This document shows positions 32,804 through 50,388 of a stretch of DNA of 64,000 bases, one piece after another. A program made the translations under genes and the position numbers. Under the pieces are notes generated by a model. The model was not told the DNA's origin, did not search any database, and worked only from the letters and a program-made list of their open reading frames with translations. Position 1 is the first letter of the stretch. Every line of letters starts with the position of its first letter. Source of the stretch: Caldibacillus thermoamylovorans (GTDB lineage: Bacteria; Bacillota; Bacilli; Bacillales; Caldibacillaceae); assembly GCF_000751775.1 (NCBI RefSeq), contig NZ_CCRF01000038.1, forward strand, positions 1-64,000, given 5' to 3'.

Positions 32804-32935
32804 CTCATAAACTTTTTGGAATAGCATCCAAAACTTTCTATCTGAATATAGTCAGGTACGAATGACATTTCCGCAATCCCTTAGTAAAATAAAAGTACCT
32901 AAAGAAAAAGTTGTGAGTTTAAAGGAGTGCTAGGT

Positions 32936-33958: not shown

Positions 33959-35460
33959 AAGAAATAACGACCGGTTACATGGAGCGGATGAGAAGGCTTG
34001 CCCTCTTTGACCCGTTATACGATTTGGAACGGAAACGGGAAGTTGACTTAGAAGGTAAAAACATTGATATGAAAGGCCTTGGTCTTTTAGCTTTACTATT
34101 TTTCTTTGAAAATAAACTGATTCGTGAATCAAAAACAGGTGTTAAGCAATTGGCGGCCTTTCTTAAAGAAATGACCCATCAAGTTTATATATTGCGTGAC
34201 GAGAAATATGAAGAGTATGCCCGGACCATCATTCAAACGTTCAGACCGACACATGGGAAAAAACGAAGCTATGAATATTTTGATTGGGAAAAAAAGGAAA
34301 CGGGTGTCATCGAATATTCAATACTAAAAGCAAACAATTTTGATGTGCAAACAAATGCACAGTATTATACATTGGATGACGACGGACTGGAACTGATTTT
34401 TGCCACAAAAGAGTTTTACAGCGAGTTTCAATTGTCAATCAATCAATTAATTTTACGAAAACAGCTGGAAAAGGGCGAGTTTAAAGGGGCCCTCAGACAA
34501 ATTAATGAAATGCGGATTGATGTGGAAACCCTTGAGGACCGCATGGAGAAATTAAAACATGAAATCCAGCGCAGCATAGTATCTGAGGAAACCTTTGAAC
34601 GTTACAAACAGCTTCTCGATGATATTTACGGCCGGCTCGAACGGGAAGACGAGGAATTTAAGGAGTTGCGTAATTTTGTCAAAGAAACAAGGGAACGGTT
34701 ATATGCCCAAGATGTCCATAAGAAAGAACGAAATGCGTACAATTATATTTTAAAAATTAACCGCGAACTGGAAGAAGTGCATTATGAGCATTCCCACTTA
34801 CTTGACCAGACTTTTCATTTAAAAAATACAACCTTAATGACAGCGCAGGAATCGCTTTATTATGCAGGCATGCAATCGTTCAATTTTGATCAGGATTTAG
34901 TGTCACGAGTCGTATCAGCACCACTGCCCATGGACGCAATGAAAGGGTTGCTTCATCCGTTTTTAAAAGTAGAGGAAAATCGGACATGGTCACCCCTTAC
35001 TGTTTTGGCGGAACAAAACCTGGTTGAGGAACGCGAGGAAAAAGTGGAATATCATTTCCTTGACGTAAACGATGACAATACCAATGATCCGTATCGTTTA
35101 TGGCTTACAAAAAAATACGGTGAATTAATGGAACTGTTTCTTCAATCCTATGAAAACAATGGTGTTCGAACATTATCCGGATTTTTTGCCTATTTGGAAA
35201 ATCAAGGGATGGAGGAGATCTATCAACAAAGATACTTTTACGACTTCTGGCTGATTTTGCACCAGCGTTCACCGGTTCATAACGGAAACGAGGATGAAAC
35301 AAGCGGCAAAACGGTGCTTGGTGAGGCACTGTCCAGCTTAAACGGACGGGTGTTAATAGTAACGGAAAGAAATATAATTATTCAAAAAGTCGACAGGTAT
35401 TCCATCCAGGATATGACATTTGAATTGGAGGGGACAGACGATGGACTATTCAGAGAGTAA
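33940..35460 (+). CDS. jetA: Wadjet protein JetA (kleisin-like, MukF analogue)
   Basis: A 506-residue, mostly helical protein with a winged-helix-like N-terminal third, a long charged coiled region (about 170-290) and a C-terminal helical/winged part. It matches the JetA (DUF5716-type) subunit of Wadjet, which bridges the JetC ATPase heads. The start is TTG 33940, 7 nt after GGAGGG. It overlaps jetD by 19 bp and jetB by 20 bp, which implies fixed stoichiometry by translational coupling. Confidence 0.82.
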   Translation: MESLDLKEITTGYMERMRRLALFDPLYDLERKREVDLEGKNIDMKGLGLLALLFFFENKLIRESKTGVKQLAAFLKEMTHQVYILRDEKYEEYARTIIQTFRPTHGKKRSYEYFDWEKKETGVIEYSILKANNFDVQTNAQYYTLDDDGLELIFATKEFYSEFQLSINQLILRKQLEKGEFKGALRQINEMRIDVETLEDRMEKLKHEIQRSIVSEETFERYKQLLDDIYGRLEREDEEFKELRNFVKETRERLYAQDVHKKERNAYNYILKINRELEEVHYEHSHLLDQTFHLKNTTLMTAQESLYYAGMQSFNFDQDLVSRVVSAPLPMDAMKGLLHPFLKVEENRTWSPLTVLAEQNLVEEREEKVEYHFLDVNDDNTNDPYRLWLTKKYGELMELFLQSYENNGVRTLSGFFAYLENQGMEEIYQQRYFYDFWLILHQRSPVHNGNEDETSGKTVLGEALSSLNGRVLIVTERNIIIQKVDRYSIQDMTFELEGTDDGLFRE

Positions 35461-36184
35461 AGTAATCCAAGCCTTTCAACTGTATACAAAATTGGCGCGA
35501 GACGGTGTACTTGGTGTTGATAGTGTCCAACTATACAATGCCGATGACGATATCCGCGCATTACTAGACCTATTTAGTTACGAAGTCGATTGTGTCATCA
35601 TTAAAACAAGTGAACAACTTTTCTTCGTACCAAAAACAAGGCTTTCTCCATTCCACGTATCCAATGATTGGATTAAGAAAAATTATTTACGGTCTGGCGC
35701 AACGAACGGAGACATTTATTTGCTCTATTTTTGTACATTAATCTTATTTGGCAGCTTTTATGACTCCTATCAAAGCCATGAGCCGACAAGACAATTTCTG
35801 TCATTGGAAGACTGGGTTCATTCTATCCAGGACCGCATCGACCAACTGAAGTCTCATGATATCGATGAGCTAAAAGAACTAGAAAAAGAGTTTTCTTATA
35901 ATTGGACGGTAATCATCGAGAAATGGGATGATATGGATGATATTAAGGAAACCGCCAAACGACAGTCCGGAAATACGATCAGTCGATTAAGCTTTATCGA
36001 CACGGTACGAAGATTTTTAAAAGACCAAGATTTAATCCAAGATATCGGTAATAATGAAGTGACTTTGACTGAAAAGGCGATGACCATTATTCAGCGGTTC
36101 TTTATGGAAGTCGAATTCAACAAAGGGATTTTTGAATTTATTTACGGTTTTGAAAAGGAGAATGAAGATGCCGGCTATCAGTAA
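35441..36184 (+). CDS. jetB: Wadjet protein JetB (KITE/MukE analogue)
   Basis: A 247-residue acidic protein between jetA and jetC, of the size expected for the winged-helix KITE subunit that binds the kleisin. The C-terminal third (TVRRFLKDQDLIQDIGNNEV, LTEKAMTIIQRFF) looks like a winged-helix domain. I choose ATG 35441 with GGAGGGG upstream. The assignment rests mainly on gene order and length; sequence recognition is weaker than for its neighbours. Confidence 0.78.
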   Translation: MDYSESKVIQAFQLYTKLARDGVLGVDSVQLYNADDDIRALLDLFSYEVDCVIIKTSEQLFFVPKTRLSPFHVSNDWIKKNYLRSGATNGDIYLLYFCTLILFGSFYDSYQSHEPTRQFLSLEDWVHSIQDRIDQLKSHDIDELKELEKEFSYNWTVIIEKWDDMDDIKETAKRQSGNTISRLSFIDTVRRFLKDQDLIQDIGNNEVTLTEKAMTIIQRFFMEVEFNKGIFEFIYGFEKENEDAGYQ

Positions 36185-39100
36185 AATCCGACTAACAAAT
36201 GTAGTGTATGAAGAGGGAAAGAAACGCTATAATGATGAACTGTTTTTCTTTGATGGGTACAATGGTGCAATTCTACTTGAAAACGGCGGCGGGAAAACGG
36301 TTTTTATTCAAACGGTCCTACAGGCGATCATTCCCCATACTGACTTGGCTGAAAGAAAAATAAAAAACACATTAGTTCTTGAAAACGCACCGGCCCATAT
36401 TGCGATTGAATGGTTAATTAATGAAAGACCGAGACGCTACGTCGTTACCGCGGTTACCCTGTTTACAACAAAAGACGGACTGGATTCATTGCGCTATGTG
36501 TATGAGTACGGAGCGGGTGACGCTCACAGTATAGAGGAAATGCCGTTTGTCAGGGAAGGGAAAAATGGAAAACGTCCGGCGGAAAAAGGAGAAATGCAAG
36601 ATTACTATAGCGGCATGCGGGACAGAAATTTTTTAGCAAGAACCTTCTCCACAATTAAAGAATATCGAAAATTCATTGAAGAACAGTACCATATTATTGC
36701 CGAAGAATGGGATAGCATTGTTAAAATCAATAGCTCAGAAGGCGGTGTAGAAGCTTTCTTTGATGATTGTAAAAGTACGAATCAATTATTCGACCGGCTG
36801 TTAATCCCAACAGTGGAAAACTCGATTGCCGGTCATGATCCGAAAATGTTTGCCGATATGTTTGAAAAGCGACATGAAAGCTTAAAACAATATAAAAAAT
36901 TAAAGGAAACGATTGAAGAAAATAAACGCATTCAAGCTGAGTTGGAAAAGTATGTGGCAACCTTTGAAAAGCTTCATATAGCAAAACTTGCATACGACAA
37001 GACAAAGCAGCGAGCAAAAGGCATTTGGGAAGAAATCCAGATGCAAAAAAGCAATATGAATGAAGAACACCATGGAATGATGCAAACATTAGCAGAGTGG
37101 CAATCAGCTTATGATCATTACCAAGTTAAAAAAGCTTCCTACCAAATCGCCATAGAAAAATCGAAATTTACGGCGCTGGAAAAAGAATATGAAGAAGTTT
37201 ATGCCAATTTTAGCCAAAGGGAAGAGGAGTTGGCCAATGTTAACAGGGACTATTATTCTTTAAAACTCGCCAAACTAAAATTGGAGTTAAAGAACTATCA
37301 AGACGAATTAACCATGATTGAAAAAGAAATCGAAAAGCTGGACCAAACAGAAGAATTGGAGGACCTTGAAATCCAGCTGGAGGAAGCAAAACGGTCATTG
37401 CTCGGCTACTTTGTTGAAACAATGGACGAGATTAAAAAAGAAATTTCTCAAGTTCAATACGAGTTGAACCCGATTCAGGAACAAATCGAAGTGATTCAAA
37501 AACAATTGGATGAAGCCGGGAAACTCGAATCGGAAAAACAAAAAGAAACAGCTGCGATTGAAAATCAGATTCGTACACGTCAAACGGATTTAGCAAAACT
37601 GGAACAATTGCTCCTTGCTAATCCGAAACAACAAAAGGTGGAAAGTGAATATAAACTTTGGCAAGACCGTTATCAATTTTTAGACGAAGAAGTCATCCGA
37701 TTAACCGGAGAATTAAAACAATTGGAACATGAGCAAAAAGAAATCAGCAAAATAATTGATGAACTGAAAACAGAACGGGAACAAGTGCAAAATTCTTTAA
37801 ACCTTATTGAGAATGACAGGGAAAGAATTGATTATGAACAGCGAATACTTATTGAAAAATTAAGTCTGCTCCGCCCCGGGTGGTCGTCTCTTGAGTCAAT
37901 TTATGATCTGGAAAAATCAATTTTCTCTCGACTTGAGGAGTCGATTGATATTTTATCAAAAGAGAAAAAAGAGTTGCTATATAAAGAACGGATTGCATAC
38001 CGATTGGTAGACGATTACGGCAAACAGCAACTGTTTTTCAGCGATTCCTATATTGATTCTCACATAAAATCGTGGAAAAACCAATTTGACTATCTTCTTA
38101 CCGGTGTCGAGTACTTACAAACCCTTGATGAACATGAATACGAGAAAAAGTGTTCCTATCCACTATGGTCACTTACACTCATCACAACGAATAAATCGAA
38201 ACCGGCCTTACAAGAAAAATTGCAGATGTCAGCTGAACAATTGCATTTTCCAATCCAAGTAATGACGTTGGAAGAAGCAGCTACAGTTGATATCATGACG
38301 GATGACGTTCATACATGGGTGATTCCGCTTCATTGGCAAAAAGGAATGAACGAAGAGGCTTTTGACCATTGGAAAACAGAAATCAAGGAGCGGGCAAAAG
38401 TGGCAACCGATACTCGGGAAGCAAAAGAACAAGAACTGAAAAAATGGGAGACAGGCTTAAGAGATTTCCAACAATTTATTACCATGTACCCGTTTGAAAA
38501 AGTCCAACTATTAGATGAATCCCGTTCCGAACATACTGGTAAAATTGATGAAATGTCAAGAAAAATCAAGAATGAAGAGGAAAAGAGTGCGATCTGCCAA
38601 GAAAAAGGAAAACAAATTACTGAAACGATTTCTGAATACAAAGAAGAAATGCAGGGATTGGAACGAAATTTGGAAAGGGCGATGGAATACTTCCAATACG
38701 TCCGTGAAATAGAAGAGGCGAAGAAAAAGGAAAAACAACTACTTGATGAATTGGAAAATATTCAAAGAAAGATGACCCGTTGGAACCGGCAGTTGACTGA
38801 TTATCAAATGCAGGAAAAATCACTGGTAGAACGAAAAAGGGATCTCGAGTCTAGTTTAAGATTCTATGAAAATCTTGATGAATATCGAGCTGTGCGTTCC
38901 TATAGTCCGATTTTTACCGGAGAAAGTAAACTGGCCATTCAAGAAAAAATGAACACGATTCAATTAAAATTGCAGAAAATCAGTAAAAGTTACGGAGAAT
39001 GGAAAGCAAGACGGGAGAATGCCATTCAAAATATCAACCGAGTCCAATTAGATATGGACGAACTTCGGAAAGAGCAATCACAACTCAATGAAGAGCAAGT

Positions 39101-40589
39101 TTTTCCGAGTGATGGCGAACAATTAATGGAAAACACACGCCGGCTAATGGTTCAATTAGCCAAAGAAGTTAAACGTTTAGACAAGATGAAAACAGAAAAA
39201 TTGGCGGCAAAAGAAGGGCAAAAAGGAAAATGGCAATTGACGATTGACCAGTTTCAACGGAATTATCCGGATGTGGAAATAGTCGAGTTTACTGAAGCCA
39301 CTCTCGATGAAGAAAAAGACCGGTTAGCACAAGAAAAACGGGATTTGGACGAAAAGAAACAATTTATTGACACGCAACTGAGCCGTATTCAAAAAGAAAT
39401 ACAATCGATTAATGAAGCTGAACGGGAAATGGACCGTTTTATTGAAAAACATCATTTTGACGCACCTAATATTGAAGCGACTCCTTTAAATGCCGATGAG
39501 AGAATGGCGTTTACCTATCACCGAAAACCGTCTGTTCAATCGATAATCCGTGAACTGGAGTCGGCCCGAGAAAATGTTGACGGGGAAAATAAAAATGTCG
39601 GAAACGGGAAACAAACGTTCAGACAGTTTTGCCAAACCATTTCCGACTTTAAGATGCGAAAAATGGCGGAAAACGGCGTCGATTTTAAAGATACGTATGA
39701 CGAATTACTCGAATTTCAGCGAAACATGGTCAAGCGAATTGAAATAGCAATAAATTATGCCAACGAAAGTATTCGCAAAGAAGATGCCGCTCTTCAGGCA
39801 TTTATCAACCAAATTCATACGCATTTAACAACCATTGTAGAAGAACTGCGGGAAATTCCAAGAAAAACAAAGGTCAAAGTAGGGGATGACTGGAAAACCA
39901 TTTATTCGTTCTCGATTCCGGAATGGGAAGAAGAGGAAGGAAAAAAACGAATCAGAGATTATATCGAATGGATCCTAACTCAATTAGAATCAGAACGCTA
40001 TGTCAAACCGGATGGCAGTCAAGATGATATGAAAATAAGAAAAGATATTGAAATGTGGTTACAATCGAAGCAACTCTTGCAAAACGTTATGAAGAATGAA
40101 GCAATGAAAGTAAGCTGCCGAAAAGTAACGAATGAAAACAAGGTAACGACAAGATCGTATTCATGGGAACAAAGTAATGTCTGGTCCGGCGGGGAAAAAT
40201 GGAGTAAAAATATGACATTATTTTTAGGGATTTTAAATTATGTAGCGGAAAAGAAAAAACAAAATCGCCCCAACACAAAACTTCATCGGGCCGTTATATT
40301 GGACAACCCGTTTGGTAAAGCTTCAAGCGATCACGTATTAAGTCCGGTCTTTTTTGTTGCCGAACAATTAGGTTTCCAAATCATTACGTTGACCGCCCAT
40401 GCAGAAGGGAAATTTTTACAAGATTACTTCCCGATTATCTACAGCTGCCGGTTAAGGGAATCGAACGATAATAACAAACAAGTGATGACGAAGGAGCAAT
40501 GGTTACACCGGGCATACTTCCAAGACCATGACCCGGTCGTCATCGAGCGACTCGGTCAAACAGAACAGTTGAGTTTGTTTGATATGTAG
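36168..40589 (+). CDS. jetC: Wadjet protein JetC (SMC-like ATPase, MukB analogue)
   Basis: A 1473-residue SMC-type motor. Walker A is LLENGGGKT (about 37-44), followed by about 1,200 residues of coiled coil with a central globular hinge (about 600-760). The ABC signature WSGGEKWS begins at residue 1339 and Walker B is AVILDNPFG with Asp1379. Asn1380 stands where most SMC proteins have the catalytic Glu. With JetA and JetB it forms a loop-extruding condensin that recognises plasmid DNA. The start is ATG 36168, 7 nt after AAGGAG, giving a 17-bp overlap with jetB. Confidence 0.9.
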   Translation: MPAISKIRLTNVVYEEGKKRYNDELFFFDGYNGAILLENGGGKTVFIQTVLQAIIPHTDLAERKIKNTLVLENAPAHIAIEWLINERPRRYVVTAVTLFTTKDGLDSLRYVYEYGAGDAHSIEEMPFVREGKNGKRPAEKGEMQDYYSGMRDRNFLARTFSTIKEYRKFIEEQYHIIAEEWDSIVKINSSEGGVEAFFDDCKSTNQLFDRLLIPTVENSIAGHDPKMFADMFEKRHESLKQYKKLKETIEENKRIQAELEKYVATFEKLHIAKLAYDKTKQRAKGIWEEIQMQKSNMNEEHHGMMQTLAEWQSAYDHYQVKKASYQIAIEKSKFTALEKEYEEVYANFSQREEELANVNRDYYSLKLAKLKLELKNYQDELTMIEKEIEKLDQTEELEDLEIQLEEAKRSLLGYFVETMDEIKKEISQVQYELNPIQEQIEVIQKQLDEAGKLESEKQKETAAIENQIRTRQTDLAKLEQLLLANPKQQKVESEYKLWQDRYQFLDEEVIRLTGELKQLEHEQKEISKIIDELKTEREQVQNSLNLIENDRERIDYEQRILIEKLSLLRPGWSSLESIYDLEKSIFSRLEESIDILSKEKKELLYKERIAYRLVDDYGKQQLFFSDSYIDSHIKSWKNQFDYLLTGVEYLQTLDEHEYEKKCSYPLWSLTLITTNKSKPALQEKLQMSAEQLHFPIQVMTLEEAATVDIMTDDVHTWVIPLHWQKGMNEEAFDHWKTEIKERAKVATDTREAKEQELKKWETGLRDFQQFITMYPFEKVQLLDESRSEHTGKIDEMSRKIKNEEEKSAICQEKGKQITETISEYKEEMQGLERNLERAMEYFQYVREIEEAKKKEKQLLDELENIQRKMTRWNRQLTDYQMQEKSLVERKRDLESSLRFYENLDEYRAVRSYSPIFTGESKLAIQEKMNTIQLKLQKISKSYGEWKARRENAIQNINRVQLDMDELRKEQSQLNEEQVFPSDGEQLMENTRRLMVQLAKEVKRLDKMKTEKLAAKEGQKGKWQLTIDQFQRNYPDVEIVEFTEATLDEEKDRLAQEKRDLDEKKQFIDTQLSRIQKEIQSINEAEREMDRFIEKHHFDAPNIEATPLNADERMAFTYHRKPSVQSIIRELESARENVDGENKNVGNGKQTFRQFCQTISDFKMRKMAENGVDFKDTYDELLEFQRNMVKRIEIAINYANESIRKEDAALQAFINQIHTHLTTIVEELREIPRKTKVKVGDDWKTIYSFSIPEWEEEEGKKRIRDYIEWILTQLESERYVKPDGSQDDMKIRKDIEMWLQSKQLLQNVMKNEAMKVSCRKVTNENKVTTRSYSWEQSNVWSGGEKWSKNMTLFLGILNYVAEKKKQNRPNTKLHRAVILDNPFGKASSDHVLSPVFFVAEQLGFQIITLTAHAEGKFLQDYFPIIYSCRLRESNDNNKQVMTKEQWLHRAYFQDHDPVVIERLGQTEQLSLFDM

Positions 40590-40972
40590 GGTGGATGCGA
40601 CCGATAAAGGACAACCCAAGCTAGGGTAGCGTTATTGGTTTATAGTTAAATATCTTTTGAGAACAACGTCAGGTATTCGTGTGATAAGGATGGAAGGGTT
40701 ATTGGTTATTATCTTTTGAGAACAACATTGAGAAAAATACTATCGGATTTGCTCTCTCTGATATGTACCTGTTTTATCCCGGCTTCTGTTTTGTGAAGTC
40801 GGGTCTTTATATGTTTGTTTGCCCCGGTAGTTGCATTTATCGAAGCGATCTTTGAAGGGCTGATAAGTGAGAACTGCGGAGTGGTAATGGAGGGACTGAA
40901 GTGAATATTGGACTTCCCTATTGGCATACGTATACTTAGAGAATGGAAATTTACTAATATGAGGGGGATTCC
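40590..40972. repeat. intergenic region with imperfect direct repeat and hairpin
   Basis: GTTATTGGTT plus ATCTTTTGAGAACAAC occurs at 40631-40667 and, shortened, at 40698-40726. CCCGGCTTC (40778-40786) pairs with GAAGTCGGG (40795-40803), followed by TCTTTAT, a possible terminator after jetC, though it lies 190 bp away. No gene was recognised. Confidence 0.5.
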
Positions 40973-43030
40973 ATGGGTGATTCAAAGAACTTCAAGAAGT
41001 TGAGTGGGAATCGTAAAACAGATCAACTCAATCAGTTCCGTGTTACCAATAAAGGAAAGAGGCTAACGTCTAATGAAGGGGTAAAGATCTCCAACAATGA
41101 ATATACATTAAAAGCAGGAGTTCGTGGTCCAAATTTAATGGAGGATATCCATTTCTTTGAAAAACAAATGCATTTCGACCATGAAAGGATACCTGAGCGA
41201 GTTGTACAGGCAAGAGGGTTTGGGGCGCATGGCGAGTTTGAATGTTATAAATCAATGCAGCAATATACAAAAGCTTGTTTTCTTCAAGAACGTGGGGCAA
41301 AGACGCCTGTTTTTGTCCGGTTTTCAAATTTGCAAGGAAATAAAGGGTCGAGTGATACAACACTAGGGCCACGTGGGTTTTCAACTAAGTTTTATACGGA
41401 AGATGGGAATTATGATTTACTAATGTTTTCGGTACCGGTCTTCATACTCCACGATGCCTATAAGTTTGCGGATGCGATTCATGCACTGAACCCAGAGCCC
41501 CATAATGATATCCCGCAAGCATCCTCTGCACATGATAATTTTTGGGATTTTGTTGTGAACAATCCGGAATCAACTCATTTCGTTATGTGGGCAATGTCAG
41601 ATCGAACGGCTCCAAGAAGTTGGCGAATGATGCAGGGGTTTAGTATAAATACATTTCGTTTTGTAAATGAAAGTGGGAAATCAACATATGTCAGATTTCA
41701 ATGGAAACCTGTCCTTGGTGTCCATTCTTTATTGTTAGATGAAGCACAAATCATTGCCGGTATTGATCCCGACTATCATCGCAGGGATTTGTGGGATGCG
41801 ATTGAATACGGCGCATTCCCTGAATATGAACTAGGTGTGCAGATACTTGAAGAAGGGGAATCGGCTGAATTTGATTTCGATATTTTAGATCCGACAAAGC
41901 TATGGCCGGAAGAGGTTGTCCCTGTAGGCGTTATTGGTAAAATGACTTTAAATCGGAATGTAGATAATTATTATTCAGAAGTAGAACAAGTGGCATTTAA
42001 TCCGGCCAATGTCATTCCGGGAATAGATTTTTCAGATGATCCGATTTTACAAGGAAGATTATTTGCCTATAGGGACACACAAATGCATCGACTGGGTAGC
42101 CCAAACTTTAATGAAATCCCGATTAATCGTTCGGTTTGCCCGGTTCATAATTATATGCAAGGGGGATATATGAAGCAATTCATTTCTGTTGACAGAGTAA
42201 ATTACCAGAAAAATTCTCTGGCCAATAATTTTCCAGTTCCATCTCATCCAAGCGAAGGCGGCTATACGCATTATCCGGAGAAGGTCGAGGGCTATAAAGT
42301 TAAAGCTGTCCCTGATTCATTTAAAGATTACTTTTCTCAGCCAAAAATTTTCTGGAATAGTTTATCGTTTATTGAAAAACAGCATTTGATTCAAGCACTT
42401 TGTTTTCAACTCAGTAAAGTTCAAAGTCACTCAATTCGTGAGAAAGCTATACAAATGCTTAGCCATGTGGATGCAGGAATGGCCACCATGATAGCTGATT
42501 ATGTAGGAGTCGAGCCACCAAGCGGAGGTAACCAAGTTTCAGTCACATCTTATTTCCCATCCTTAAGTATAGCAAATGCGACGAAATATCCAATAACGTT
42601 AAGAGTTGGCATTTTGATAGGTCATAATTTTGACGATGAAGAAGTAGGGGATATCATTCATGCACTCAAGAAACACGGCATCTTTATAGATTTTATTAGT
42701 GAAAAGCTGGGAACAATAACTGGAGTTGACGGAACAAAAATCACTGTCAGCCAAACTTTTTTAACAACAAACCCGAATTTATATGATGCACTTTATGTTG
42801 TTGGAGGAAGTTCGAAACGAGAAAAGAAATTCAACCAAGAGATGATGAATTTTTCCATGGAAGTATATAAACATTATAAACCAATCGGAGTTGCAACGAA
42901 TGCTGAGAAATATCTTCCGGTATCGGGAGAAAATAATTTATTGGGCGTTGTATTTGCTAAAAATAATCCGAACTTTAAAGATGAATTTATTACTGTCATT
43001 GCAGAGAGGCGATTTTGGGAACGGGTCTGA
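40973..43030 (+). CDS. large-subunit catalase homologue lacking distal catalytic residues
   Basis: The 685-residue protein has the KatE-type plan: catalase core (about 45-530) plus a C-terminal DJ-1/PfpI-like domain (about 560-685). Heme features are kept: proximal Tyr366 and Arg362 in GRLFAYRDTQMHRLG, and Ser118. The distal catalytic His is Gln79 (ERVVQARGFGAHG, normally VVHARG), and the NNTPVF motif with the distal Asn is replaced by MFSVPVF (152-153). True catalase activity is therefore doubtful. The ATG has a GAGGGGG ribosome site. It stands alone after the Wadjet operon. Confidence 0.85.
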   Translation: MGDSKNFKKLSGNRKTDQLNQFRVTNKGKRLTSNEGVKISNNEYTLKAGVRGPNLMEDIHFFEKQMHFDHERIPERVVQARGFGAHGEFECYKSMQQYTKACFLQERGAKTPVFVRFSNLQGNKGSSDTTLGPRGFSTKFYTEDGNYDLLMFSVPVFILHDAYKFADAIHALNPEPHNDIPQASSAHDNFWDFVVNNPESTHFVMWAMSDRTAPRSWRMMQGFSINTFRFVNESGKSTYVRFQWKPVLGVHSLLLDEAQIIAGIDPDYHRRDLWDAIEYGAFPEYELGVQILEEGESAEFDFDILDPTKLWPEEVVPVGVIGKMTLNRNVDNYYSEVEQVAFNPANVIPGIDFSDDPILQGRLFAYRDTQMHRLGSPNFNEIPINRSVCPVHNYMQGGYMKQFISVDRVNYQKNSLANNFPVPSHPSEGGYTHYPEKVEGYKVKAVPDSFKDYFSQPKIFWNSLSFIEKQHLIQALCFQLSKVQSHSIREKAIQMLSHVDAGMATMIADYVGVEPPSGGNQVSVTSYFPSLSIANATKYPITLRVGILIGHNFDDEEVGDIIHALKKHGIFIDFISEKLGTITGVDGTKITVSQTFLTTNPNLYDALYVVGGSSKREKKFNQEMMNFSMEVYKHYKPIGVATNAEKYLPVSGENNLLGVVFAKNNPNFKDEFITVIAERRFWERV

Positions 43031-43142
43031 CCCACGGTACAAGCTAGACCCGGCTAAAGGTGTCTGTCCCTTCGTACATGTAAATAGTTGAGGAAGACCG
43101 CACTTATAACTCCTGCGCTCATCAAAGTTCCTTAGCCACTTC

Positions 43143-43562
43143 TTACATGAAACAGTTGAGACAGACCCTATCTACAAGAGCTGCAGTAATGATCCCTACC
43201 GTATATCGAAACAAATCCACAACAAGAAATCCTTTCCCTAAAATTAATGAGCCCAGTACAGTCCCCCGAATCTGATTAACCCAAACTGCTTGATACAGTT
43301 GACTAAATTCGATAGTATAGCTAAACAAAAAACTAAGAATAATAGCTGTTAACCGGCTCCTTCCCACGAATAGGAACCGAAAACCGAAATACACCATCCC
43401 AGCCCAAATTGTATCCCCGGCATTTTCTGCAATAAATAATGGGAGCATCTGACTGTACTTCCTCGATGCTAGTCCTAATAAGATGGTAATCACCACAGCA
43501 ATCAAATAAGTGAATCGCGGGTGATGAGTAAAACGGTTCATAAACATTTGTTTTTTATGCAA
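43143..43562 (-). CDS. DUF2809 membrane protein
   Basis: A 139-residue protein with four membrane helices and DUF2809 signatures: LGLASRKY, LPLFIAENAGDTIWAGMVYF, IEFSQLYQAVWVNQIRGTVLGSLILGKGF and DLFRYTVG. The start is TTG 43562, 7 nt after GGGG; ATGs at 43547 and 43541 are alternatives. The family is broadly distributed and uncharacterised. Confidence 0.8.
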   Translation of the reverse strand: MHKKQMFMNRFTHHPRFTYLIAVVITILLGLASRKYSQMLPLFIAENAGDTIWAGMVYFGFRFLFVGRSRLTAIILSFLFSYTIEFSQLYQAVWVNQIRGTVLGSLILGKGFLVVDLFRYTVGIITAALVDRVCLNCFM

Positions 43563-43653
43563 TTTGATTCCCCTTCGATATTGAGATTCCCACTATGTAA
43601 AATTTACTAATCACCTTAATCCTTTGCCTGCTCCAGTCAGGCACCGTCGTATA

Positions 43654-43851
43654 CTAATTGCTTATAAAATTTTTCATCTGTCCAATATGATGTTGATCAT
43701 GCCAAATAAAATCGTTAACATATTGATGTATAGTAAATAGATTTCCGTCTGCATCTTCATGTGCTTTCATGAAATCTTCATCAGTAAATGATTTTAATAG
43801 ACTTAAAATTTCCCCGCGATATTGAATCGCCTCCAATGATAATTCCTTCAA
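43654..43851 (-). pseudogene. N-terminally truncated DinB-family fragment
   Basis: A 65-codon frame encodes the last third of a DinB/DfsB-type four-helix protein, with the metal-site motif FIWHDQHHIGQMKN near its end. Upstream the frame is closed by a TAA, the only starts are poor TTG codons, and there is no ribosome site. Full DinB proteins are about 150 residues, so this is a remnant. Confidence 0.65.
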
Positions 43852-43861
43852 ACAGCATTTT

Positions 43862-44317
43862 TAAATCGTTAATCCGTCTTTCTTTTTCTTTTGGCAACTT
43901 TACATAAACGCTACAGAGTATAATATTAACATAATCGTGATTCGAATTTTCAAAAATATTATATCATAACCAAACAAATGTTTCAATTAATTTCTGTTTA
44001 TGTAAATATTTACACCATAGCTTCTTAAATATAATTTTAATCTGTTTCATTTGAACAAAATATTGCATCTGTGAGTCAAAATATATATAAATTATGAAAT
44101 TTTGCTTAAGTTTTCATAAATGAATAATGAAATATGGCTTTAGTATTTGCCAAATTCAATTATAATGGAAGTAACAGATGTTTGGAAAAAAGTATGGAAC
44201 GACAACAAGAAAGTGATTACACTAATATTATATATAACAATTGTTTATTGTGATTTATTGGGAAATGTAAATGATGATCAAATAAAAATAATTGAATAAC
44301 TTTGTAGGGGTTTTAAA
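43862..44317. other. AT-rich intergenic region upstream of the helicase gene
   Basis: About 450 bp of unusually AT-rich sequence. It contains a 44-codon ATG frame (44165-44299; product starts MEVTDVWKKVWNDNKK and has one hydrophobic stretch) that ends 18 bp before the helicase start. That frame lacks a ribosome site and I do not call it a gene. No clear promoter or repeat. Confidence 0.35.
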
Positions 44318-47125
44318 ATGGAAACAGATAAACGGTTAATTGTAAATTCTAATAATGGCAATTTACTAAATGAATTAATCAAATCATTAAATGAGTGTGA
44401 ATCTTTCTATTTTAGTGTGGCCTTTATTAATTTCAGTGGTCTTCAGTTACTTTTAGATTCCTTAAAAGAAGCGGAGTATAGAGAGATAAAAGGAAAAATA
44501 ATTACTTCTACATATTTAAATTTCACCGAGGTCAAGGCGCTAGAGAAAATTCGTACCTTTAATAATATAGACTTAAAGGTATTTCATAATTTTGATGAAA
44601 AAGGGTTTCATACAAAAGTTTACATTTTTGAATATCAAGATACATTTAAAATAATCATTGGATCCGCAAATATTACGCAAAGTGCATTAAAAAGTAATAT
44701 TGAGTGGAATGTTGAAATTGTCTCCAAAAATGAATCGAATTTTATAAAAGAAGTTTTAAAAGAATATAACTATTTGTGGAAAATAAGTGAAGAAGCAACT
44801 GATGAATTTTTAAACGAATATCAAAACTTCCTAAAGACAATAAACAAGTCAAGGCCAATGTCTCAATTAACATTTGAAAGAAATTATATTGTTCCCAATC
44901 GAATGCAAAAAAGGGCGATTGAAAGCCTTGAGCGATTGAGAAATTATGGAGAATCGAAAGCGTTGGTTATTGCTGCGACTGGAACAGGAAAAACATATAT
45001 GTCAGCTTTTGATGTGAAAAATTATAAGCCTAAAAAACTACTATTTGTCGTTCATAGGGAAGAAATTTTAAAGAAAGCGCTGGAGACATTCAAATTTTTA
45101 TTACCCAATGAAAATATTACTTTTGGATTGTTAACAGGAAATACAAAAGACAAGAATGCTGATTATATTTTTTCAACGATTCAAACTCTTTCTAGATGTT
45201 ATCACGAATTTGGAAAAGAAGAGTTCGAATATATTATTTACGATGAGGCTCATCACACAACAAGTCCCAGTTATCAAATTGTTATGAATTATTTCATCCC
45301 AAAATTTATGCTAGGGATGACCGCAACACCTGAACGTAGTGACAATATGAATGTGTTTGAACTATTTAATAATAATGTGGCTATTGAAGTTCGATTACAT
45401 GAGGCTTTAGAAGAAAATTTAATTATCCCTTTCCATTATTTTGGAATTACAGATATTGAGGGGATAGATTTAAGTGATGTGGATATTGACGATATTGCCG
45501 AAATAACAAAGCGGTTAAATGTAAATAAACGGGTAGATTTCATTATTGAAAGAATGAATTTTTATAGTCATGATGGGGACAAACGAAAATGTTTAGGGTT
45601 TTGCGCAAGTATCGAACATGCAAAGTATATGGCTGATGAGTTTACTAAGCGAGGTTATCCTAGTGTCTATTTACATGGTGAACATTCCCCTGATGAAAGA
45701 ACTTATTTTATTAATCGATTAGAAGATGATAAGGATGAACTTCAAGTTATTTTTTCTGTAGATATTTTTAACGAAGGAGTGGACATTCCCTCAATTAATA
45801 CCGTCCTCATGTTACGGCCGACAAGTTCTCCTATTGTTTTTATTCAGCAGTTAGGTAGGGGATTAAGAAAGCATGAAAGTAAGTCATTTTTGACGGTTCT
45901 TGATTTTATTGGCAATCACTCAAAGGTTTTCTTAATTGCAATAGCTTTGAATGGAAGTCGTTATTACGATAAAGAAAGCTTAAAAGTGGCAGTGTCTACA
46001 GGATTTGCCAATATGCCGGGTGCAACTCATATTCAAATGGATGAAATATCGAAAGAACGCATTCTCGAACAAATTGATCGGGAAAATTTTAATTCATTAA
46101 AATATTTACGTGAGGAGTATTTTGAATTTAAAAAAATGAATCAAAGGAAAATTCCTTATCTTTTAATGGATTATTTAAAATATGATGGCGCACCCGATCC
46201 AGTAAAATTTATTAATCGAGAAAAGACCTATTTACACTTCCTTGCAAAAACTGAGAAGAAAGAAGGAATCAAAAAATTATTACTGAATGATGCCTTTGAA
46301 AGAACTTTAAAAGATTTGTCAGCAAGACTACCTTTAAAGCGAATCTATGAGTTGGTTATTCTTAAAATTTTGCTTGAGCAACATGAAATTACGATGAAAG
46401 AGGCAAAAAGCGAGATTTTAAAACACGTTGAAAAGGTTGATGACGATAGTATTCGCCATGCTTTTGAAGTGTTGAACCAGGATTATTGTGATAGAGGACA
46501 AATTAATCGGGGTGCCAAACTTCTTGAAATTAAAAATGGTAAAGTGTCAAGAACAGAAATGTTTTATCTTGTCCTTCAACATGACCAATATCGTAAATAT
46601 ATAAAAGATGTCATTCATTATGGCATATTTAGATATGAGAAGGAATTCAAACGGGATTATTATGGTGTACCTCATTTCAAATTATATGAACAATATCAAA
46701 TGATGGATGTCGCCCTTTTATCAAATTATCGCAAAGTACACAGTTCGTTTAGAGGATCCGGTCTCTTAACAAATGGAAATGAATATTTTCTTTTTATTGA
46801 TTTGCATAAAGAAGCTAATATTAAAGAAAGTATTAATTACAAAGATAAATTTATTGATAGGCGGTATTTTCAATGGCAAACCCCAAATAGCACGGCACAA
46901 TCTTCTGAAAGAGGGCAAAGTATTATTTTCAATCAAGTGCGGGGTATCCATCTTCATTTATTTGCTCGGAAATATCGGGAAATAGATGGAAAAACAGAAC
47001 CGTATATTTACATTGGTAAGGGGAATACGGTTCATTATGAAGGAGAAAAGCCAATTACAGTAAAACTTGAACTGGAGCATGAAATTCCTGCCAATCTATA
47101 TACTGAATTTACACAAATGGTATAG
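44318..47125 (+). CDS. PLD-nuclease/DEAH helicase/DUF3427 fusion protein
   Basis: The 935-residue protein has three parts. Residues 1-170 are a phospholipase D-like nuclease domain (FHTKVYIF with His98/Lys100, then GSANIT). Residues about 190-600 are an SF2 helicase (AATGTGKT at 219-226, YDEAHHTT with DEAH 309-312, GMTATPER, and motif VI QQLGRGLRK). The rest matches DUF3427 and ends with a domain like those in restriction-type helicases. ATG 44318 has TAGGGG upstream. It is single-copy, AT-rich and convergent with a NUDIX gene sharing the terminator. A defence or DNA-repair role is likely by domains and context; it is not a characterised system that I can name. Confidence 0.85.
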   Translation: METDKRLIVNSNNGNLLNELIKSLNECESFYFSVAFINFSGLQLLLDSLKEAEYREIKGKIITSTYLNFTEVKALEKIRTFNNIDLKVFHNFDEKGFHTKVYIFEYQDTFKIIIGSANITQSALKSNIEWNVEIVSKNESNFIKEVLKEYNYLWKISEEATDEFLNEYQNFLKTINKSRPMSQLTFERNYIVPNRMQKRAIESLERLRNYGESKALVIAATGTGKTYMSAFDVKNYKPKKLLFVVHREEILKKALETFKFLLPNENITFGLLTGNTKDKNADYIFSTIQTLSRCYHEFGKEEFEYIIYDEAHHTTSPSYQIVMNYFIPKFMLGMTATPERSDNMNVFELFNNNVAIEVRLHEALEENLIIPFHYFGITDIEGIDLSDVDIDDIAEITKRLNVNKRVDFIIERMNFYSHDGDKRKCLGFCASIEHAKYMADEFTKRGYPSVYLHGEHSPDERTYFINRLEDDKDELQVIFSVDIFNEGVDIPSINTVLMLRPTSSPIVFIQQLGRGLRKHESKSFLTVLDFIGNHSKVFLIAIALNGSRYYDKESLKVAVSTGFANMPGATHIQMDEISKERILEQIDRENFNSLKYLREEYFEFKKMNQRKIPYLLMDYLKYDGAPDPVKFINREKTYLHFLAKTEKKEGIKKLLLNDAFERTLKDLSARLPLKRIYELVILKILLEQHEITMKEAKSEILKHVEKVDDDSIRHAFEVLNQDYCDRGQINRGAKLLEIKNGKVSRTEMFYLVLQHDQYRKYIKDVIHYGIFRYEKEFKRDYYGVPHFKLYEQYQMMDVALLSNYRKVHSSFRGSGLLTNGNEYFLFIDLHKEANIKESINYKDKFIDRRYFQWQTPNSTAQSSERGQSIIFNQVRGIHLHLFARKYREIDGKTEPYIYIGKGNTVHYEGEKPITVKLELEHEIPANLYTEFTQMV

Positions 47126-47151
47126 TCTTCTCGTATTTGAGAAGACTACTT
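47123..47151. terminator. bidirectional terminator shared by helicase and NUDIX genes
   Basis: TAGTCTTCTC (47123-47132) pairs perfectly with GAGAAGACTA (47139-47148) around GTATTT, followed by CTTTT. The TAG stop codons of both convergent genes lie in the two arms, so both genes end inside one hairpin. Confidence 0.85.
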
Positions 47152-47541
47152 TTCATTCATTAATAATTTTACTGCTGGGATATCTGCGGGTGCCCAAACA
47201 AGTGAATTTAGATTTTCCTTTTTTAGCCAAATGAATTTTGAATGTTCAACTGGTACAGGATTTCCTTCAATAATTTTTGCCTTTATTGCAATTAAATGAA
47301 TAATAAAAGTTTCGTATTCATGAATGTTTTCATTATGAATATCAAAAGTCTCAATTTTACATTTAAATTCTTCTTCTATTTCTCGCTTTAGTGCCGTAAA
47401 AACATCCTCATCCGCTTCGACCTTGCCACCGGGAAATTCCCAATGATTTGAAATTGACATTTTCGGTGACCTTAATGCACAAAGAATCTCACCTTGGTCA
47501 TTTTCTATAACGCCTGCAACTACTTTAATTTTCTTTTTCAT
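47146..47541 (-). CDS. MutT-like NUDIX (deoxy)nucleoside triphosphate pyrophosphohydrolase
   Basis: A 131-residue NUDIX enzyme: start KKKIKVVAGVIENDQGEILCA, then the NUDIX box GGKVEADEDVFTALKREIEEEF (G-x5-E-x7-RE-x2-EE pattern). It hydrolyses nucleotide diphosphate-linked compounds, most likely (deoxy)NTPs. The start is ATG 47541 with GAGGAG upstream. The stop shares a terminator hairpin with the PLD-helicase gene. MutT-like genes next to DUF3427 helicases recur in Firmicutes as far as I recall, so a functional link is plausible but not proven. Confidence 0.85.
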   Translation of the reverse strand: MKKKIKVVAGVIENDQGEILCALRSPKMSISNHWEFPGGKVEADEDVFTALKREIEEEFKCKIETFDIHNENIHEYETFIIHLIAIKAKIIEGNPVPVEHSKFIWLKKENLNSLVWAPADIPAVKLLMNEK

Positions 47542-47953
47542 AATAAATCTCCTCATAAAAAACTAGATATATTTATTATAATATACTCTTAGTTTCGTAC
47601 CTAAAAATATTTGTGGTTAAAAATAAAAATAGCAATAAAAAAGCCGCATAAACACTGATTATTTGTTATGATTAGAGTACTAATCCAATGTTATGATTAG
47701 AGTACTAATCCAAAATAAACTAAAGGATATGTTTTATACAGGAAATAAGTAAGGAGATTTCAAACTCATGAGGTTTCCAATTATAGGGAGGCCATGTAAA
47801 TTTTCAAATTCCGCTTCCTTTGCCACAAGGAGGGCTTTCCAAAATTATATGTTAATCGGAGGAAATCGACAAATAATATGAAAAATAAACGGACAAGGCC
47901 TATTTTCCTTATCCCGAAAATAATTATAAAGTTAAGAAAAGCAGGTGATATTC
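47542..47953. other. intergenic region with tandem duplication
   Basis: The region between the divergent NUDIX and ABC transporter genes holds the 25-bp duplication at 47664-47713. A 37-codon frame at 47768-47881 has AAGGAG upstream, but its product has no protein-like pattern. No riboswitch or terminator was seen. Confidence 0.4.
47664..47713. repeat. 25-bp perfect tandem duplication
   Basis: TGTTATGATTAGAGTACTAA plus TCCAA occurs twice head to tail (47664-47688 and 47689-47713), upstream of the ABC transporter operon. It may be a duplicated regulator site or simple slippage. Confidence 0.92.
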
Positions 47954-48730
47954 ATGAGTGAGGAAGTCTTATCAATTCGTAATTTGCGTAAAAATTTTGG
48001 AGAGAAGGAAGTTTTGAAAGGGGTGGATCTGCACGTTTACCGTGGGCAAATTATCGGATATATCGGTCCAAACGGTGCGGGGAAGAGTACGACGGTCAAG
48101 ATTTTGCTCGGTTTGGAAGGGGATTATTCCGGGGAAATAAAAATATTTGGCCGTGATATTTCTAATGGTGATATTAGCTATAAGAAAAAAATTGGGTATG
48201 TACCCGAGATGGCCGATGTTTATGATAATTTAACAGGTTATGAGTATTTAACATTTGTTGGCGAGCTATATGGGCTAAACCATGACTTAGTCGAATATAA
48301 GGCCAAAGGATTAATGGATCTGTTTGGCATTGGCGAGGTTTTTCATACGAGAATTGCTTCCTACTCAAAAGGGATGAGGCAAAAGCTGCTGATTATTTCA
48401 AGCCTTCTTCATAATCCGGAGCTGCTTTTTTTGGATGAACCGATTAACGGGTTAGATGCGAATAGTGTTATGGTCTTTAAGGAAATATTGGCTGAACTGG
48501 CTGCACAGGGAAAAACGATTTTTTATTCATCTCATATTATGGATGTCGTTGAAAAAATCAGCAGTCGTATTGTTTTGCTGAATGACGGACAGATTGTTGC
48601 AGATGGATCTTTTGCCGAGTTACAAAAGAAACAGGGCGGAACACTGGAAGAAATTTTCAATCAATTAACCGGGTTTCATAACCATGAAGAAATTGGAAGA
48701 AGATTCGTTTCGCTCGTTCAAGAGGTGTAA
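47954..48730 (+). CDS. ABC transporter ATP-binding protein
   Basis: A 258-residue ATPase with Walker A GPNGAGKST, Q-loop, signature YSKGMRQKL, Walker B LLFLDEPINGLD and H-loop SSHIMDVVE. The DrrA/NatA-like organisation fits an exporter. The start is ATG 47954 (AGGTG upstream) rather than GTG 47945. The permease gene begins 2 bp after its stop, so they form a two-gene transporter operon. The substrate is unknown. Confidence 0.9.
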   Translation: MSEEVLSIRNLRKNFGEKEVLKGVDLHVYRGQIIGYIGPNGAGKSTTVKILLGLEGDYSGEIKIFGRDISNGDISYKKKIGYVPEMADVYDNLTGYEYLTFVGELYGLNHDLVEYKAKGLMDLFGIGEVFHTRIASYSKGMRQKLLIISSLLHNPELLFLDEPINGLDANSVMVFKEILAELAAQGKTIFYSSHIMDVVEKISSRIVLLNDGQIVADGSFAELQKKQGGTLEEIFNQLTGFHNHEEIGRRFVSLVQEV

Positions 48731-48732
48731 TA

Positions 48733-50388
48733 ATGGAGACGAGAGATTTTAAAAGATTAAAAGTGTTGGACAAGTTGCAATGGTTTTTTGACCGCATGGG
48801 TGTTAATTATTCGGTAATGAGGAAAATTTTACAAGTGAAGATGATTATGGATGAGCGTAGAGTCCCAACGATCTTCAACCAAAATAAGAAAAAAGACGGG
48901 ACCGTGAAAAAAGAAAGCAATGGATTCATCAAATCGTTATGGGTCTACTTATTGATGAGTTTATTTTTGCTGCCGTTTATTTTTTTAGGCGGGAATTATT
49001 TATTTCAAATGAGTTTGATTTTCGGGATCATCATGTTTATGGTGATGACGACGATGGTATCGGATTTTTCAACGGTGCTTTTGGATATTCGCGATAAAAA
49101 TATTTTATACACAAGACCAATTGACCGAAAAACAATTAATATGGCGAAAAATGTTCATGTTATGTTTTATTTGCTGTTATTAACTGCTGCACTTGTCGGG
49201 ATTCCGGTGCTGGCCGGTTTATTTCGGCACGGCGCGATCTTTTTCCTTATTACTGTAATTGAATTAATTTTACTAAATATGTTTATTGTTGTCATCACGG
49301 CGCTGATCTATATGGCAATTTTAAAGTTTTTCGACGGTGAGAAACTAAAGGATATAATTAACTATGTACAAATAATACTTTCGCTCTCGATTATGGTTGG
49401 CTATCAAGTTGTTGTGCGTTCATTTGAGCTTGTTAATCTTGATATTGTTTTTATTCCAAAATGGTGGCATCTTTTTATTCCGCCAATCTGGTTTGCAGCA
49501 CCTTATGAAATGTTTTTAAATCACGTGTTCAGTCCGACAATGGTTGTTCTCAGTGTTTTTGCTGTACTGATCCCAATTGCTTCCTTTCTCCTTTATCTTC
49601 GGTTGATACCTTCATTTGAAAAAAGCTTGGAAAAACTGTCAGCACTTCAAGCGCAAAAAGAAAAGAAACGAGGAAAAATTGGAGAAAGTTTGCTGAAACT
49701 GATTTGCCGAGACCAAACGGAACGCGCGTCTTTTTGCTTTGCCGGCATCATGATGAAAACGGAACGCGATTTTAAGTTAAGAGTCTACCCATCGCTTGGG
49801 TTTTCAATTGTTATTCCATTTATCCTATTTTTTAACCAAATCGCCTCGCAACCTTTTGCCGAAACAGCTGCAAGCAACTTGTATCTTTCCATCTATTTTG
49901 CAATGATTGTCATTCCGTCTGTTGTACTAATGCTAAGTTTTTCCGGCAAATATAAAGGAGCCTGGATTTTTCAAGTGATTCCAGTCCAAAATATGGAAAT
50001 GATCATTAGCGGGACATTAAAGGCGTTTCTGGTCAGGTTGTACGTTCCTATCTATGTCCTGTTAAGCGTGATTTTTGCCGCTATATTTGGCGTTCGTATT
50101 ATACCGGATTTGGTCATTGTCTTTTTAACATCGTGTCTGTACACCTTAATTTGCTTTTTGTTCAGAAAAATTACCATGCCGTTTTCTGAACCATTTGAGG
50201 CAGCGAAAGAAAGTGATTCTTGGTATATTTTTGGCCTCATGCTCCTCATTTTACCGTTCTTTGGTTTGCATTATTTAAGCTTATATCTTCCGTTTGGAAA
50301 ATATTTATATATGATTGTCTTGGCGGTGGCCCTCATTTTTGGGGGGAGATGGGCGATAGGCTTGAAGTTGAAAAATGTCCGTGTGTAA
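48733..50388 (+). CDS. ABC transporter permease of unknown substrate
   Basis: A 551-residue membrane protein with about twelve predicted helices in two blocks (about 70-310 and 355-545), separated by a basic cytoplasmic stretch (QKEKKRGKIGES). It starts with a charged cytoplasmic tail. It is the only permease for the adjacent ATPase, so the transporter is probably a dimer of each. The substrate cannot be read from sequence; antimicrobial or lipid export would be typical. Confidence 0.82.
   Translation: METRDFKRLKVLDKLQWFFDRMGVNYSVMRKILQVKMIMDERRVPTIFNQNKKKDGTVKKESNGFIKSLWVYLLMSLFLLPFIFLGGNYLFQMSLIFGIIMFMVMTTMVSDFSTVLLDIRDKNILYTRPIDRKTINMAKNVHVMFYLLLLTAALVGIPVLAGLFRHGAIFFLITVIELILLNMFIVVITALIYMAILKFFDGEKLKDIINYVQIILSLSIMVGYQVVVRSFELVNLDIVFIPKWWHLFIPPIWFAAPYEMFLNHVFSPTMVVLSVFAVLIPIASFLLYLRLIPSFEKSLEKLSALQAQKEKKRGKIGESLLKLICRDQTERASFCFAGIMMKTERDFKLRVYPSLGFSIVIPFILFFNQIASQPFAETAASNLYLSIYFAMIVIPSVVLMLSFSGKYKGAWIFQVIPVQNMEMIISGTLKAFLVRLYVPIYVLLSVIFAAIFGVRIIPDLVIVFLTSCLYTLICFLFRKITMPFSEPFEAAKESDSWYIFGLMLLILPFFGLHYLSLYLPFGKYLYMIVLAVALIFGGRWAIGLKLKNVRV

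Follow-up and report, generated by a model that had tools for sequence, protein, structure and literature searches.

Conserved linkage of a SauUSI-type restriction enzyme and a NudG-type NUDIX hydrolase at a locus of Caldibacillus thermoamylovorans: a possible modified-cytosine exclusion module

The 64,000-nucleotide window analysed here (positions 1 to 64,000 of contig NZ_CCRF01000038.1, Caldibacillus thermoamylovorans, assembly GCF_000751775.1) carries a gene for a 935-residue protein that joins a PLD-family nuclease, a DEAH helicase and a DUF3427 domain, and it ends against a small NUDIX gene on the other strand. Both the fusion and the convergent arrangement, described in a first-pass annotation made from the sequence alone, were confirmed by the open reading frames (ORFs) and by Pfam (Table 1). 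The locus raises two questions: what the large protein is, and whether a nucleotide hydrolase lies beside it by chance or by function. The first-pass annotation had suggested a two-gene defence or repair module; co-occurrence of the two genes across genomes supports a module, and no model supports a repair helicase.

Pfam placed PLDc_2, ResIII/DEAH, Helicase_C and DUF3427 in this order along the 935-residue protein (DUF3427, E = 1.6e-65). The PADLOC model mREase_IV (PDLC03658, methyl-directed Type IV) matched the protein end to end (1.7e-167), and the SauUSI structure, PDB entry 7clg, covered residues 6 to 902 (5.1e-165). In an alignment of 15 divergent homologues the PLD residues H98, K100, S116, N118 and E129 were unchanged, and GTGKT, the D, E and H of the DEAH motif and most of QQLGRGLRK were also invariant. 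The AlphaFold model of the DUF3427 domain had a mean predicted local distance difference test (pLDDT) score of 92.9, and a Foldseek search with this model returned SauUSI (7clg) as the best match, followed by the methylcytosine-reading SRA domains of SUVH5 and SUVH6 with methylated DNA and by MspJI and LpnPI, which are modification-dependent enzymes. In its domain order, its PLD and ATPase catalytic residues and its C-terminal SRA-like reader fold, the window helicase is by homology a full-length SauUSI homologue of the Type IV restriction enzyme family, and as a restriction enzyme it is a further member of an already known family. Type IV enzymes lack a cognate methyltransferase and are safe only while the host DNA is unmodified; no gene matching PF00145 (C5-cytosine methyltransferase) was found in the window's genome.

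SauUSI cuts DNA containing 5-methylcytosine or 5-hydroxymethylcytosine, requires ATP and two sites, and is active in E. coli as a single polypeptide (PMC3874153). The window protein is of the same length class and has the same order of nuclease, DEAH motor and DUF3427/SRA-like reader, with the nuclease and motor residues invariant, but is only about 40% identical to SauUSI (41% over the matched stretch of one S. aureus record), and its restriction activity, known for SauUSI, is predicted from homology. S. aureus has the NUDIX as well: it lies upstream of the matched SauUSI stretch, at a distance of 89 bp, and is co-directional, whereas the window gene falls in a Bacillaceae/Clostridia branch in which the two genes are mostly convergent.

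A census of 398 Bacillota genomes was used to compare the positions of helicase, NUDIX and DUF3427. A NUDIX gene was located at most 160 bp from 14 of the 16 SauUSI-type genes, and a fifteenth (genome G248) had a NUDIX gene of the same branch 14 kb distant. Longer PLD-helicases (about 900 to 1140 residues, most with a weaker DUF3427 match) had a NUDIX gene within 3 kb in 7 of 33 cases. Among PLD-helicases of about 670 to 880 residues, tested representatives of which are without DUF3427, one of 41 was near a NUDIX gene, and this gene adjoins a SauUSI pair whose NUDIX is shared. The difference between 14 of 16 and 0 of 41, with the shared NUDIX scored as none, gave a Fisher p of 1.6e-11, and under generous assumptions random placement would yield 14 of 16 with a probability of about 1e-39. 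The linkage tracks the DUF3427 reader domain and not the helicase.

A second, independent sample was drawn by a helicase-only search, which gave 80 named species loci. The NUDIX gene lay within 600 bp in 65 of these, so that the test of co-occurrence proposed in the first-pass annotation was strongly positive in both samples. Five of the 15 misses were contig ends, and two others had a NUDIX gene at 1.3 to 1.7 kb. The 65 close pairs were convergent in 33 cases, co-directional with the NUDIX upstream in 17 and co-directional with the NUDIX downstream in 15; none was divergent. Their hosts were Bacillota, Bacteroidota, Spirochaetota and archaea (Methanobrevibacter, Bathyarchaeota), and pairs were also found on prophage contigs (L113, L117) and plasmids. 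The linkage is thus conserved and independent of layout. Because 32 of the 65 close pairs are co-directional, convergence is not essential, and antisense read-through through a shared hairpin, the link between the genes suggested earlier, cannot be a general one and was rejected. Re-formation of the pair in three layouts points to function and argues against inheritance of a single gene order, and we consider a functional linkage of the SauUSI-type enzyme and the NUDIX to be highly probable.

The census also bears on the possibility that the NUDIX lies by chance next to a helicase of Mokosh-like or DNA-repair type. Its helicase and PLD parts do resemble those of many SF2 (superfamily 2) proteins, and the first-pass annotation had likened the fusion to Mokosh type II, which we take to combine a helicase and a PLD domain in one protein. 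No Mokosh model matched at E <= 0.001, however, RadD and other repair models fell far under their cut-offs, and the match to SauUSI was full length. With an adjacency far beyond chance, this explanation is refuted by the census and is hardly tenable; both the Mokosh and the repair-helicase identities were rejected.

The NUDIX reading frame is best started at 47541, where AGGAG precedes the ATG by 7 nt; the ATG of a longer form, at 47556, lies upstream of AGGAG. Pfam identified a NUDIX domain in the resulting 131-residue protein, and the PADLOC candidate PDC-S07 (PDLC04899) matched it over its full length (2.6e-47, model positions 3 to 131 of 135); the PADLOC entry as searched is without description, partner or mechanism. 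Among named characterised enzymes the protein scored higher with NudG (PRK10546, 9e-24, 83.8 bits) than with MutT (TIGR00586, 72.3 bits), and since both scores are under the NCBI curated cut-offs of 156 and 97.9 bits, it is a relative of both and a formal member of neither. Matches in the PDB included 5X1X (2.4e-27) and 2RRK (6.5e-15). The base-pocket motif is WAPADIP in the window protein, LAPADIP in NudG/Orf135 (2RRK) and PPANEP in the MutT-like 7syc; its aspartate, Asp120, corresponds to NudG Asp118, which we take to act in the base pocket. The predicted fold had a pLDDT of 94.3, and the closest structure in Foldseek was a putative CTP pyrophosphohydrolase (3gwy), with 2rrk (Orf135) and 5zro (MutT2 with 5-methyl-deoxycytidine triphosphate, 5-methyl-dCTP) in the top five. 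On sequence and predicted fold, therefore, the window NUDIX groups with E. coli NudG/Orf135 and mycobacterial MutT2, which act on cytidine triphosphates, and not with the MutT of 8-oxo-deoxyguanosine triphosphate (8-oxo-dGTP). The earlier label 'MutT-like' was imprecise. A search of the window's genome for a second NUDIX close to the PDC-S07-type family found none, the next match scoring 60 bits against 160.

NudG/MutT2-type enzymes hydrolyse 5-methyl-dCTP. The window protein shares with NudG/Orf135 (2RRK) and M. smegmatis MutT2 (5ZRO) the fold and the Nudix box, and with NudG the aspartate of the APAD motif, and from this homology we infer the substrate class, probably C5-modified deoxycytidine triphosphate (dCTP). 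We know of no linkage of NudG/Orf135 or MutT2 to a restriction enzyme, and the SauUSI-linked NUDIX proteins form a separate branch. A tree was built from 171 NUDIX domains, and 83 of 86 SauUSI-linked domains fell in one supported branch (98/97) together with eight unlinked ones. One of these eight in fact has a SauUSI gene 1.7 kb away; the alignment is short, and the deep forks of the tree are unsure. The NUDIX that adjoins SauUSI on the S. aureus record is PDB 5X1X, identical over 129 residues and 46% identical to the window NUDIX in a structural alignment. It was deposited as a mismatch-repair 'MutT', under a title without a link to SauUSI, and this name is probably misleading.

Within 57 SauUSI-linked NUDIX proteins G38, G39, K40, E45, R53, E54, E57, E58 and Asp120 were unchanged in every case. 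An invariant catalytic Nudix box speaks against a regulatory or physical partner, that is, a NUDIX that binds or senses modified nucleotides and switches SauUSI on or off. Such a partner would agree with the tight linkage and with the gene fusions to HNH nucleases described below, but SauUSI on its own works both in vitro and in E. coli, and we regard such a partner as quite improbable. As SauUSI acts in E. coli as a single polypeptide, cutting does not depend on the NUDIX.

The neighbourhoods of 60 high-scoring NUDIX genes without SauUSI linkage were also inspected. Some directly adjoined genes for proteins of about 270 residues with a C-terminal HNH domain, which matched E. coli McrA (6ghc, 6.3e-26) and ScoMcrA (5zmm) and is homologous to the HNH domain of both. 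Six of nine full-length HNH genes had a NUDIX gene at most 150 bp away, and in six genomes (L223, L224, L225, L234, L235, L236) reader, HNH and NUDIX were fused in a single ORF of 412 to 488 residues. By eye the HNH motif is degenerate in two of the six fusions (L234, L235), as though only reader and NUDIX were left. These McrA-like proteins, whose nuclease is of the 5-methylcytosine-specific McrA kind, occur in other genomes than that of the window and, unlike the SauUSI type, have a different nuclease and no motor. They share with it the NUDIX family, and their N-terminal half aligned weakly with DUF3427 in a single comparison (probability 83, E = 8.7e-6), which makes a common SRA-like reader likely, not proven. 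In the NUDIX tree the fusions form one branch and the HNH neighbours are scattered, with at least six changes. The tree as a whole we read as one old dedicated partnership of NUDIX and SauUSI with several later recruitments elsewhere.

Other defence systems were considered as partners of the unlinked PDC-S07 genes and were rejected, as their neighbours, HNH nucleases, one GmrSD gene and some isolated cases excepted, were mixed. One locus (L167:1619-4662) is a tight same-strand row of NUDIX, McrA-like HNH and Schlafen-type helicase (PADLOC PDC-S41) genes, and in another (L153:3527-6032) the NUDIX stands between a GmrSD-type gene (PADLOC Orf5/HEC-06) and a McrA-like gene truncated to its reader part.

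These neighbourhoods also bear on a housekeeping explanation, in which a generic MutT/NudG gene accompanies restriction genes and, when the cell is stressed or DNA is being degraded, does no more than limit mutation (8-oxo-dGTP, 5-hydroxy-dCTP). In its favour, NUDIX proteins occur widely, many members of the family are unlinked and lie beside ordinary genes, and the neighbouring MutT proteins of Streptococcus have been annotated as DNA repair (PMC7641849). Against it, the linkage goes with DUF3427 rather than with the helicase, a second and unrelated methyl-directed nuclease has a NUDIX of this family as neighbour or fusion partner, and 83 of the 86 SauUSI-linked proteins fall in a dedicated branch; the explanation appears improbable.

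We propose instead, as a plausible but tentative reading, a modified-cytosine exclusion module in which the NUDIX shields the host against its SauUSI-type enzyme. Incoming DNA with 5-methyl- or 5-hydroxymethyl-cytosine would be recognised by the SRA-like DUF3427 domain, the SF2 motor would move with ATP and the PLD domain would cut. Degradation of methylated foreign DNA, including DNA cut by the SauUSI-type enzyme itself, would set free 5-methyl-deoxycytidine monophosphate (5-methyl-dCMP), which, if rephosphorylated, could be inserted by polymerases into the host chromosome and so mark host DNA as foreign. By taking C5-modified dCTP, 5-methyl-dCTP above all or the hydroxymethyl form, to the monophosphate, the NUDIX would close this route; like the substrate, this purpose of self-protection is inferred. 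Polymerases incorporate 5-methyl-dCTP like dCTP, and degraded methylated DNA is a possible source of it (PMC5389931, PMC10742078).

Several points weigh against the exclusion module. The rephosphorylation of 5-methyl-dCMP has been assigned to phage kinases (PMC10742078), and in Bacillus the host's own kinases would have to perform it. NudG relatives accept dCTP and CTP as well, so that homology does not give specificity for the methylated form, and the aspartate motif, present too in most unlinked NudG-type proteins, marks the class and not the partnership with SauUSI. E. coli has McrA and McrBC, yet its NudG is unlinked. SauUSI without a nearby NUDIX, with no contig end involved, was found in 10 of the 80 species loci and in one of the 398 genomes (G174). 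C5-methyltransferase genes were present in 2 of 17 SauUSI genomes against 100 of 381 others, a trend only (one-sided p = 0.14), and mutual exclusion of the two was not retained as a finding.

Three loci were recorded beside these exceptions. A genome without a SauUSI match (G359, locus L149) has a NUDIX of the SauUSI branch and, about 17 kb off on the same contig, two C5-methyltransferase genes. At an Arcobacter locus (L061:10342-11278), a SauUSI homologue without a NUDIX has about 2 kb downstream a MazG-like gene, a possible NUDIX replacement, which overlaps an ORF resembling nucleoside 2-deoxyribosyltransferase. On a Lactiplantibacillus plantarum plasmid (L255:2496-7891), NUDIX, SauUSI homologue, MazG-like pyrophosphohydrolase and DNA/RNA helicase genes stand in a row, with one restriction enzyme flanked by two nucleotide hydrolases. 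That another hydrolase takes the place of a missing NUDIX was considered and set aside, as the MazG-like cases, one without a NUDIX and one next to a complete pair, are too few to count.

The main rival to the exclusion module shares its chemistry and its substrate class. Here the NUDIX would be a second defence arm that destroys phage-made 5-hydroxymethyl- or 5-methyl-dCTP and starves cytosine-replacing phages, leaving SauUSI to cut the modified DNA that remains. Some kinases of phages are known to act on 5-methyl-dCMP and 5-hydroxymethyl-dCMP (PMC10742078), SauUSI restricts DNA with 5-hydroxymethylcytosine (PMC3874153), and PADLOC itself lists the NUDIX family as a defence candidate. Most pairs are nevertheless chromosomal and in diverse hosts, with no sign that cytosine-replacing phages are common there, and 5-methyl-dCTP would be a main substrate for rare phages only; we judge this arm to be rather unlikely.

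At the locus itself, the two genes end, as first described, in one hairpin with their stop codons in opposite arms: one arm holds the helicase TAG, and CTA in the second is the NUDIX stop as it reads on the + strand. The stem is 11 bp and the loop 4 nt, with a minimum free energy of -16.5 kcal/mol on the + strand and -18.6 on the - strand (z about -5 to -6; none of 200 shuffled sequences folded as well). A T-rich tail flanks it on the + strand only, so that 'shared terminator' is a fair description for the helicase and a less certain one for the NUDIX. The same arrangement, with conserved sequence, was found in Neobacillus and other Bacillaceae, and more distant convergent pairs have unrelated hairpins at the same place. 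An RNA element was rejected, as Rfam gave no match within 40000-50000. The helicase lies, in agreement with the first-pass annotation, in an AT-rich stretch (GC content 0.31 against 0.37 across the window) and about 4 kb from Wadjet: the Wadjet set (32927-40589) is 3.7 kb upstream, with a catalase gene in between. This Wadjet-like set is complete in the order JetD, JetA, JetB, JetC, with JetA3-D3 as best PADLOC models (type III-like) and a JetC ORF of 1474 residues. In the space that separates the NUDIX start from an ABC transporter gene, a 25-bp unit (TGTTATGATTAGAGTACTAATCCAA) occurs in two perfect tandem copies (47664-47713) with an inverted repeat GATTAG/CTAATC, operator-like in appearance.

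Table 1 Features of the SauUSI-NUDIX locus, in window coordinates
Feature	Position	Strand	Evidence
Helicase, predicted 5-methylcytosine-dependent Type IV restriction enzyme, SauUSI-type, 935 aa	44318..47125	+	PADLOC mREase_IV PDLC03658, PDB 7clg
PLD-family nuclease domain, aa 24-154	44387..44779	+	Pfam PF13091 PLDc_2, alignment
SF2 translocase core: ResIII aa 192-340 (ATGTGKT, DEAH), Helicase_C aa 418-518, QQLGRGLRK	44891..45871	+	Pfam, invariant columns
DUF3427, predicted SRA-like modified-cytosine reader, aa 671-932	46328..47113	+	Pfam, AlphaFold model, Foldseek
Hairpin common to both 3' ends, one stop codon per arm	47123..47148		Folding, shuffles, relatives
NudG-type NUDIX hydrolase, 131 aa, SauUSI-linked lineage (PADLOC PDC-S07)	47146..47541	-	PADLOC, NudG PRK10546, PDB, Foldseek, tree
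Nudix box, aa 38-60, catalytic residues intact	47362..47430	-	Invariant in 57 SauUSI-linked NUDIX proteins
Asp120 in WAPAD, counterpart of NudG Asp118	47182..47184	-	Invariant 57/57; alignment to 2RRK, 7syc

MutT homologues adjoining SauUSI homologues in Streptococcus have been noted before in a figure legend (PMC7641849). In the literature searched, which included few subscription papers and no preprints, no link of SauUSI, Type IV restriction, McrA or DUF3427 with NUDIX or MutT was found to be proposed, which is not proof of novelty. The novelty lies in the two-activity module, together with the HNH variants and the fusions. How cells that degrade methylated DNA keep 5-methyl-dCMP out of their own genome is a question seemingly not raised in the literature found, and a conserved dedicated 5-methyl-dCTP hydrolase, if true, would answer it.

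That methylcytosine-directed restriction in prokaryotes has a dedicated partner acting on the nucleotide pool, a NUDIX that removes 5-methyl-dCTP so that degraded DNA cannot re-mark the host, is a possibility that we advance with reserve. If it is true, self and non-self would be kept apart on precursors and not on DNA, in a manner common to SauUSI, McrA-like and fused nucleases. The solved 'MutT' structure 5X1X and the PADLOC candidate PDC-S07 would gain a function, and Type IV systems a second activity, with a bearing on the barrier that SauUSI sets to gene transfer in S. aureus.

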